A stretch of DNA of 33,330 nt from Acidobacteriota bacterium (GTDB taxonomy: Bacteria > Actinomycetota > Acidimicrobiia > Spongiisociales > UBA5794), in contig JADFIY010000006.1 in assembly GCA_022566415.1 (NCBI GenBank), positions 1 through 33,330 of the forward strand, written 5' to 3'. Within the stretch, counting starts at the first letter, position 1. Every line of letters begins with the position of its first letter. Made by a program: the position numbers and the translations under genes. Positions 25,640-28,433 of the stretch are shown piece by piece. The notes under the pieces are model-generated. The model was not told where the DNA came from. It was given only the letters and a program-made list of their open reading frames with translations, and searched no databases.

Positions 25640-26140
25640 GTGGATCTCGTCGATGTCGGTTATGGCCGTCGCGCTCACGGGATCGGCGGCGAAGTCGTCG
25701 TGAGACCGCAGACCGACGACCCCGACCGCTGGGTGGTCGGAGCCTCGTTCATCACAGACGAATCTCCACCCCGGACCCTCGAAGTGACCGCGCTGCGACC
25801 GCACCATGATGATCTGCTGGTCCGCTTCGCCGGGATCGACGATCGAGATGGCGCCGACGCCCTCCGCGGCACCGTCTTCCAGATACCGGCCACCGACCGT
25901 CGCCCTCTTGGTGATGCGGAGTTCTGGCCGGACGATCTGATCGGTGCCACCGCGTTGGGGCCCGAAGGGCAGACCCTCGGCACCGTGACCGGTGTGGAGT
26001 TCGGCGACGCCCAAGATCGATTGGTCATCGAGACCGCCGATGGTTCCCGCGTCGAAGTCCCGTTCGTGTCCGCCATCGTGCCTGCGGTCGACCTCGAGGC
26101 ACGAGTGATCACCGTTACCCCTCCCGACGGGTTGTTCTGA
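25640..26140 (+). CDS. rimM: Ribosome maturation factor RimM
   Basis: DVGYGRRAHGIGGEVVVRPQTDDPDRW, ALRGTVFQIP, EFWPDDLIGATALGPEGQTLGTVTGV, PFVSAIVPAVDLEARVITVTPPDGL; GTG start at 25640. Confidence 0.9.
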   Translation: MDLVDVGYGRRAHGIGGEVVVRPQTDDPDRWVVGASFITDESPPRTLEVTALRPHHDDLLVRFAGIDDRDGADALRGTVFQIPATDRRPLGDAEFWPDDLIGATALGPEGQTLGTVTGVEFGDAQDRLVIETADGSRVEVPFVSAIVPAVDLEARVITVTPPDGLF

Positions 26141-26179: not shown

Positions 26180-27412
26180 TTAGGGGGGCCTACCGCTGGT
26201 GGTGTAGGTGTGGCCGAGTTTGGTGATCCATTGGTGGTCGCCGTTGGGGAGGGGTTGGTGGGTCCATCCGGCTTGGTGTCGAATGCGGTGGTCGTGGCGG
26301 CACAGGGGTGCGAGGTTGTCGATGGTGGTTTCTCCGCCGTCGACCCATCGGGTCCGGTGGTCGAGGTCGCAGTCGATGGCTGGCATGCGACATCCGGGGA
26401 AGATGCAGGTCTGGTTGTGGGCTAGGACTGTTCGGCGTTGTGAGACAGTGGGGCGGCGGCGGGTGGTGCCGTTGTAGAGGGCCTGTCCGGTGGCGGGGTC
26501 GGTGATGGTCCAGCGCCACTGTGCGCCGTCTTGTTCTGCGGCGACTTGGCGGGCAATGTCGGCGATGACCGGGCCGTAGCCGGCGAGTTCGCCGGGATGT
26601 GTAGCAAGCCCAGCCAACGTGTCGAGGTCGGTTTGGATATGCACCCCACCAGCAGAACTGTCGGCGTTGCCGGTGAGGAGATCCAAATAGACGTCGGCGC
26701 GGAGTTGATCCATCGACCGGGGGTCGTCCCTGGTGTTCAAGCTGCGAGCGAGGTGGTTGATCCGTCGCGACACGGCGCTGACTCGATGTGGCGGCAGCTC
26801 CAGCCCCATCAGGTTGGCGGTCCCCGACGTGGTGCGTTCTACCACGAGGCGGCGGTCTTTGACTGCATCCTCATACCGTTCCTGGGCCCCGTCGGGGTCG
26901 GCTTCCATTGCTACCCGGTCGAGGCGGGCCTTCAACTCGCCGGTGGTGAGCTGTCCAGCGACATCGATGACACGGTCCACCACCCGTCGAGTCGTAGCGT
27001 CGGAGAGATGGGTGGTGGCGTAGCTGAACGTCTTGGCCCGCCGGATATCGATGTTCCCGGCGACCAACGCGTCCCACACCCGGGGGAGGCGCTGCCGCAA
27101 TTCCAACGCAAACGACAACTCGGTGTCGGTGGCGCGGCGGGTCAAACGCAACGCGACCCTGATCTCAGCAGCGGCAGATTCTGCGGCCCATTGCGGGTCG
27201 CCATCTTCCATGACGTCGACGACCGCTGCCATATCGCGGTACACCTGTGCGTCGTAATAGGACCGTTGCCTGTGGTGGGCTTGGAGCACGGTGATTCGGT
27301 CGTGGGGTGACACTTCGGTGACGTCGATACAAGCCAGGATTCCCCCCAGCTCAGGGCCAGGTTCGAGATCGGCCAATATCGTTGGAATCGGTTCATACAC
27401 TCTATCGAACAT
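26180..27412 (-). CDS. 13E12-repeat family (DUF222) protein with C-terminal HNH endonuclease domain
   Basis: DUF222-like N-terminus; HNH CIFPGCRMPAIDCDLDHRTRWVDGGETTIDNLAPLCRHDHRIRHQAGW. Confidence 0.92.
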   Translation of the reverse strand: MFDRVYEPIPTILADLEPGPELGGILACIDVTEVSPHDRITVLQAHHRQRSYYDAQVYRDMAAVVDVMEDGDPQWAAESAAAEIRVALRLTRRATDTELSFALELRQRLPRVWDALVAGNIDIRRAKTFSYATTHLSDATTRRVVDRVIDVAGQLTTGELKARLDRVAMEADPDGAQERYEDAVKDRRLVVERTTSGTANLMGLELPPHRVSAVSRRINHLARSLNTRDDPRSMDQLRADVYLDLLTGNADSSAGGVHIQTDLDTLAGLATHPGELAGYGPVIADIARQVAAEQDGAQWRWTITDPATGQALYNGTTRRRPTVSQRRTVLAHNQTCIFPGCRMPAIDCDLDHRTRWVDGGETTIDNLAPLCRHDHRIRHQAGWTHQPLPNGDHQWITKLGHTYTTSGRPP

Positions 27413-27419
27413 ATGTTCG
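27406..27419 (-). promoter_or_regulatory. LexA/SOS box, perfect palindrome CGAACATATGTTCG overlapping the HNH gene start codon
   Basis: 14-bp perfect palindrome matching the Gram-positive LexA consensus (GAAC-N4-GTTC); -10-like TATGAT on the minus strand at 27421-27426. Confidence 0.75.
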
Positions 27420-27428
27420 TATCATACA

Positions 27429-27440
27429 TCACCGCGGTGA
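27429..27440. promoter_or_regulatory. 12-bp perfect palindrome TCACCGCGGTGA upstream of the HNH gene
   Basis: Sequence is its own reverse complement; directly upstream of the -10-like element. Confidence 0.4.
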
Positions 27441-27587
27441 CACAAATCAGAGGGATATGCACACTCCAAGCCGCGCTACCACTCAACGCGGGTCCCTGGG
27501 ACTCGCACGCCGAGGTGGCTTCGTTATGGACGTGCCATCGTGGTGAAAGCGCGCTGGGTCGTGTCTTGGTCGCTCGTCTCGGTATCG

Positions 27588-27641: not shown

Positions 27642-28433
27642 ATGTCTGACGAATCCAGAGACCTGATCGAGGAGTTCGACGCCCGCTACCGCATCGGTGA
27701 AGAGCCGGTGATGCTCCGCATCGAGCGCGCCGTGACGGGATCCGACTACGGGGCGACCAGCTACACGACACGCGGGCAAGCGGACCGGCTCGCCGACCTG
27801 CTCGATCTCGCGCCCGGGAAGCGTCTCCTCGACTTCGGGAGCGGCGCAGGGTGGCCCGGCATCCACCTCGCCCGCTCCACCGGATGCGATGTCGTACTCA
27901 CCGACTTGCCGCTCGAGGGCCTGCGCACGGCCAACCGGCGCATGCGGGACGACGGAGTACGAGGCACCGTGATCGCCGCCACTGCCGCTTCGCTACCGCT
28001 CCAGGACCAACGGTTCGATGCAGCGACGAGCTCGGACGTGCTGTGTTGACTGCCTGCCAAGCTCTCCGTGCTGAGAGCCTGCAGCAGGGTCCTCAAGCCG
28101 GGTGCGCTGCTGTCATTCTTCGTTGTCGCCGCCGCTGACGGCGTCTCTGCCCGAGACATTGCGGCAGGGCCCGAATACGTCGATGCCGAGCCCGGTTACC
28201 CGCTCCTCATGACGGCGGCCGGATTCGACAACGTCGACCTCGCCGAAGTCACCGACGAGTACGCGGCGACGCTCTCGACCTCGATTCGAGCCAGAGACGC
28301 CGAATCAGCCGAGCTCGAGGATCTCCTCGGCGCCGACGAGTTCGCCGAGGGTCAGTCCAGCCGTCGCCAAGAACTGGCCGCCGTGCGCGACGGTCTTCTC
28401 GTGCGTTATCTGATCTCCGCCGTCCGTCCGTGA
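27642..28433 (+). pseudogene. Class I SAM-dependent methyltransferase interrupted by one in-frame TGA (28047-28049); possible selenocysteine recoding
   Basis: Both halves (27642-28049 and the downstream frame to 28433) lie in the same frame: RLLDFGSGAGWPGIHLA ... FDAATSSDVLC*LPAKLSVLRACSRVLKPGALLSFFVV. Confidence 0.8.

Follow-up and report, generated by a model that had tools for sequence, protein, structure and literature searches.

What does a LexA operator do when it lies on the start codon of the gene it would control? The question arises from a 33,330-nucleotide stretch of DNA (the window), in which an intact DUF222/HNH endonuclease gene of the 13E12 type, encoding 410 aa, occupies positions 26180–27412 on the minus strand. 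The protein has a DUF222 domain (PF02720, E=2.1e-22) followed by an HNH domain (PF01844, E=5.1e-7), the order by which the 13E12/DUF222-HNH family is recognized, and its relatives align across the full length at 51–71% identity. Because searches of PADLOC, NCBIfam and PDB sequences returned no match to it, the protein has no defence-system label or solved structure.

A preliminary description of this locus had reported a perfect palindrome on the start of the gene, an ATG inside the palindrome, a near-consensus −10 element just upstream and a near-leaderless geometry, and all four hold. The predicted LexA (SOS) operator CGAACATATGTTCG, a perfect palindrome at 27406–27419, is of the same box type as those at SOS genes. 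The ATG (27410–27412, minus strand) sits at box offset 6 and opens the 410-aa frame with M-F-D (N-terminus MFDRVYEP). The −10 element TATGAT (27421–27426, minus strand) ends 8 nt 5′ of this ATG, and since the TGA within it is in frame, no translation start is possible upstream of the −10; within the gene, a GTG at codon 5 and a TTG at codon 13 are possible alternatives. This spacing fits a predicted transcription start site at or within ~3 nt of the ATG. The description was nevertheless incomplete. In place of a TTGACA at −35, the promoter has TGTC at a fixed distance, 12 nt 5′ of the −10 (27439–27442, minus strand), the core of a PafBC-type −26 element reading TGTCAC-N10-TATGAT, which the description overlooked. 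Also missed were the alternative register of the box, the promoter classes of the same family that lack a box or have TTGACA, and the occurrence of this promoter at peptidase genes of phages.

Is the palindrome a LexA operator at all? Within the window, CGAACATATGTTCG occurs once, the closest other match having three mismatches. The core GAAC-N4-GTTC is found three times against 0.58 expected, the other two copies having GC-rich centres, and so frequent a core leaves room for a chance palindrome or the site of another factor. The core by itself is weak evidence, and support for LexA comes from the genome and its relatives. The source genome (2.57 Mb in 272 contigs, 92% complete) has one copy of lexA, without which the preliminary description could not have stood, and also has recA. 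The 14-mer CGAAC-N4-GTTCG occurs 15 times genome-wide, compared with 4 for a reversed-pattern control. AT-centred copies lie at recA, at a LysM-nrdR locus that adjoins lexA and has three boxes, at dnaE2, at an imu operon encoding an ImuB-type polymerase (IMS domain), at a DEDD/GIY-YIG-type exonuclease gene and at DUF222 genes. The window gene thus has what marks a member of a LexA/SOS regulon, namely a CGAAC-N4-GTTCG operator at its promoter in a genome with lexA and recA that places the same operators on core SOS genes. Given this company, together with the massive recurrence at DUF222 starts described below and the complete absence of reversed-control matches in 398 genomes, we regard a chance palindrome or a site for another factor as having almost no probability.

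DUF222 genes occur in several copies per genome in the genomes sampled. In the source genome, two further ones (MFDTRYRP and MFDRRFDV, on contigs C175 and C168) start inside the box with the register seen in the window gene, and so does a 144-aa ORF (MFDHSDHH, contig C54) that looks DUF222-like by eye and has no Pfam match. The fourth Pfam DUF222 gene, on contig C212, is without a box. The preliminary description had also staked itself on homologues having the box at their starts, and they do: it lies over the start codon in 48 of 121 DUF222 genes sampled across the order and phylum, and in 51 of 76 close homologues, all or nearly all of which come from Acidimicrobiia MAGs. In 45 of the 48 (register A6), the ATG is at box offset 6 and the protein begins MF[D/E...]; the other three (register A4) read GAAC-ATG-NGTTC and begin M[R/S]S. 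Two of these three (G151, G097) are from family f35, which is probably mycobacterial. Class C comprises 37 genes with TGTC-N12-TANNNT-N6-ATG and no start-codon box, a few having a box elsewhere nearby; these are 37 of the 66 genes lacking a start-codon box, against 0.06 expected. In the seven genes of class B, a TTGACA is followed by a LexA box inside the 17-bp spacer, a −10 and, 6 nt on, the ATG. In the other 29 of the 121, several of them cut by contig ends, a box lies elsewhere or no element is present. Control is therefore not universal, since all of these elements are missing from 19 of the 121, some of which are also cut by contig ends. The start-codon box is scattered over a protein tree, requiring at least 12 changes on well-supported branches. 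A further arrangement was seen at a DUF222 promoter (L121) in an f35 genome that is probably a Mycobacterium (G129), where a LexA box with one mismatch encloses TATGTT, the −10 of a perfect PafBC motif, and the ATG follows 6 nt on.

The element upstream of the −10 recurs as well. Alignment of DUF222 start regions from the order and phylum gave the strong consensus TTTCTGTC..., then TANNAT, then CGAACRT-ATG-TTCGA. In 31 of 44 promoters TGTC and TANNNT are separated by 12 nt, and no other separation occurs more than once. TGTC-N12-TANNNT was present in 77 of 96 promoters of a pooled sample against 0.03 expected from shuffles, a sample that mixes two partly overlapping sets (e.g. L074, L278), so that its counts are not fully independent. 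Among close homologues, the TGTC element accompanies the box in 44 of 50 A6 promoters. A relaxed pattern, TTNTGTC-N12-TANNNT, finds only five sites in the source genome: one at each of the four Pfam DUF222 genes, with or without a box (the window site is 27421–27445), and one at the LexA-boxed exonuclease gene. The strict mycobacterial form TGTCRGT-N9-TANNNT was tried as well and set aside, giving only two matches in the source genome with no clear repair gene adjoining.

In Mycobacterium tuberculosis, the PafBC motif is TGTCGG, TGTCAG or TGTCAC followed by N10-TANNNT (PMC8151990); PafB contacts the −26 element, PafC holds domain 4 of sigma-A, and ssDNA activates PafBC (PMC11804915). The window promoter and its homologues carry TGTC[A/G]N-N10-TANNNT, the sequence mark of the PafBC (RecA-independent) promoter class, and the source genome has pafA, pafB and pafC contiguously (PF03136, E=3e-72; HTH_PafC, E=6e-30; two WYL proteins). 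Each of the 20 other genomes that were checked and have these promoters also has PafC, which is consistent with a PafBC role and is not discriminating, as PafBC is widespread in the phylum. The recA gene of the source genome (L026:2550-2670), missed by the relaxed pattern owing to its TT prefix, has a LexA box at −119 and, separately, TGTCAC-N10-TACGTT at −51, and provides a positive control for this motif within the lineage. Its layout resembles the two-promoter layout of mycobacterial recA. Could the window promoter be a plain SOS promoter, with a real and repressing LexA box and a TGTC that is a general sigma-A feature or belongs to another activator? PafBC binding here is predicted, and class B, with TTGACA and a LexA box in the spacer, indicates that LexA alone can suffice within this same gene family. 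Against this, TGTC-N12-TANNNT is the published motif in its known variants, the TGTC lies near −26 where PafB touches DNA, and the motif recurs at recA in a genome that has pafBC. We therefore consider a promoter with no PafBC role unlikely, and favor a PafBC-type promoter.

If the combination of elements is a genuine signature, it should find these genes without being told where they are. The composite pattern TGTC-N12-TANNNT-N-GAACNNATGTTC was sought across 398 genomes of the phylum with gene positions ignored. Matches turned up in 22 of them, and the reversed-pattern control gave none. Of 40 composite sites examined, 31 are in-frame starts of DUF222 genes, two lie at DUF222 genes out of frame (likely frameshifts), one is at a gene that is DUF222-like in its N-terminal part, and six are at other genes. 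Matches include five f35 genomes (G097, G201, G417, G433, G441). One genome from the same taxonomic class, complete at 2.5 Mb (G075), has 30 composite sites, and the ten examined (L227, L247, L255-L262) are all at DUF222 genes. The box alone was also sought, as TCGAACRTATGTTCGA, in 60 relatives; of the 70 loci examined, 16 have the TGTC-N12-TA element and all 16 are at DUF222-type genes. A second cellular family (RWERRE..RELR..G.SY.EI...KGTLS.WCRDL) starts at the ATG of the composite (L245:1530-2267, L263, L264:330-1052), with no Pfam match in the two loci searched. At another locus (L171, match at 1500) the ATG within a LexA box opens the frame of a UvrD/PcrA-type helicase-like gene (MFDTDAEVPRYLEGLNSRQRQAVL), and this box is not accompanied by the TGTC element.

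The same scans bear on whether the ATG in the box is the start codon or an incidental part of the operator. LexA may simply prefer ATATG-like cores, in which case translation would begin at the GTG of codon 5 or the TTG of codon 13. Class B promoters and boxes at genes other than DUF222 do contain such a core out of frame, and the lexA gene of the source genome is of this kind: its one-mismatch box TCGAACATATGTTTG (L022:2431-2490) holds an ATG out of frame with lexA, which probably starts at a later ATG preceded by a Shine-Dalgarno-like AGGTGGAG. However, the ATG is in frame in 31 of the 33 DUF222 genes with the composite, where chance would give one third, and in 9 of 45 genes the first 20 codons offer no alternative start. 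The distance to the −10 argues the same way. TANNNT begins at −13 in 70 of 92 homologous promoters and at −14 in 11, and in register A4 the box has moved by 2 bp, yet the −10 still starts 13 nt from the ATG as in A6, with nearly the same spacing in the box-free class C. An incidental ATG is thus very improbable in our estimate. The constant is the leaderless promoter–ATG geometry rather than the box, since this distance is kept in both registers, and the palindrome appears to be fitted over whichever ATG it can include.

With the ATG taken as the start codon, the preliminary suggestion that the box shapes the first codons of the family can be judged. MF[D/E] does track the box (the window gene reads MFDR), and phenylalanine is found at position 2 in only 3 of 53 class C genes; two of these three box-free genes (L064, L066) retain a GTTCGA half site. 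The suggestion was too narrow at residue 3, which across relatives is D in 62, E in 12, A in 11, G in 5, S in 3 and V in 2, in partly overlapping samples. Since the operator extends over codons 1 to 3, M-F-[D/E] is best read as its by-product and not as a signature of the protein.

The promoter also extends beyond cellular genes. A search of 2.9 million viral contigs gave 23 matches to the composite, none of them at a DUF222 gene. Six of the sites are in-frame starts of M78 (ImmA/IrrE-like) peptidase genes beginning MFE or MFD (L385:10535-10953, L386:1289-1716, L387:8421-8818, L389:12503-12918, L392:4-422 and L397:4-416). The first of these shares its gene order, an HTH protein, the M78 peptidase and a tyrosine integrase, with Glutamicibacter phage BIM BV-113, where TGTC-N12-TATCTT is accompanied by a degenerate box covering the ATG. 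A box-free version, TGTC-N12-TATGTT, is present in Arthrobacter phage TripleJ.

The sequences themselves show the box and its placement over the ATG, the constant TGTC/−10/ATG spacing, the recurrence at actinobacterial DUF222 genes and the presence of lexA, recA and pafBC. From these features we think it probable that the window contains a LexA operator overlying both the transcription start and the translation start of a leaderless DUF222/HNH promoter of the PafBC type, or one with a leader of 1–3 nt. In the mechanism we propose, LexA across the start point would block RNA polymerase. Upon DNA damage, RecA–ssDNA would remove LexA, and ssDNA-activated PafBC would recruit sigma-A RNA polymerase to the TGTC element without a TTGACA, the mRNA being predicted to begin at or beside the AUG. 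Two-key switching follows in this proposal from the LexA block and the PafBC recruitment: the layout of the sites suggests that full expression would need both LexA cleavage and PafBC. Since both sensors read ssDNA by independent routes, such a lock would open only on sustained damage. LexA could also dominate, with the TGTC element merely setting promoter strength. A DNA-cutting enzyme kept under tight lock is a plausible reason for two keys; overexpression of the Mycobacterium smegmatis HNH nuclease MSMEG_1275 kills the cell by cutting chromosomal DNA (PMC9416677), the likeness to the window gene product being that of an HNH nuclease.

How general might this be? From these sites, a DUF222 nuclease family in many actinobacteria appears to be double-locked until DNA breaks. 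More tentatively, and with somewhat less than even confidence, we propose a widespread actinobacterial two-key promoter, in which leaderless transcription is driven from the PafBC −26 element and held shut by a LexA operator on the start codon. It would have arisen repeatedly, the spacing being kept while the palindrome shifts register, and would be used by possibly dangerous or selfish genes, namely DUF222/HNH nucleases and the M78 peptidases of lysogeny cassettes in actinobacterial temperate phages. The two DNA-damage responses of actinobacteria, until now mostly treated as distinct pathways, would then meet on one 50-bp promoter. The composite signature finds such genes blind and with no control matches in 398 genomes, the conserved MF[D/E] N-terminus would be explained as an operator read through translation, and the promoter offers a concrete entry point to the role of the abundant and functionally obscure DUF222/HNH genes.

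Mobility of 13E12 genes has been claimed in the literature (PMC5005354). The window gene lies directly after rimM (25643-26137) and is convergent with it. No DUF222 gene was found downstream of rimM in relatives having 1.5 kb of sequence there, and one relative contig (L357) terminates in a DUF222-like piece at the matching position. An insertion between rimM and trmD was considered as proof of mobility and rejected, as a trmD signature lies near rimM in only one relative genome and the premise of adjacency fails. On the plus strand of the window, at 27642–28433, a SAM-methyltransferase-like frame is broken by a single in-frame TGA at 28047–28049 (DVLC*LPAKLSVLRACSRVLKPG), which may reflect a pseudogene, an assembly error or recoding.

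How does this promoter compare with known ones? That LexA controls 13E12 genes is established: such genes are documented in the LexA regulon of M. tuberculosis (PMC5005354, PMC4181829), in line with the preliminary description, and five HNH genes there are RecA-dependent (PMC8151990). Rv0515, Rv1702c, Rv3074 and Rv3776 are, like the window gene, of the 13E12 family and come under LexA control after DNA damage, but the literature searched mentions neither a start-codon box nor a PafBC element on the same promoter. Neither the start-codon operator nor the PafBC fusion is described there, although Davis 2002 and Smollett 2012, where the boxes are tabulated, and Adefisayo 2021 may list part of it, and both features look new. 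Among M. tuberculosis genes with a primary transcription start site, 26% are leaderless, with TANNNT centred 7–12 bp upstream of that site and the site within 5 bp of the start codon (PMC3898074). The window geometry is alike, except that its transcription start is predicted only and that an operator occupies the start codon itself. Class B promoters share the gene family, the LexA box and the leaderless geometry with the window promoter, and differ in having a canonical −35, no TGTC element and a start ATG outside the box. Mycobacterial PafBC promoters (TGTC[GG/AG/AC]-N10-TANNNT) have a core and −10 spacing identical to those of the window promoter, and pafBC is present here. Unlike them, the window promoter has a LexA operator fused at +1, whereas recA of the same genome keeps the two elements apart, at −119 and −51.
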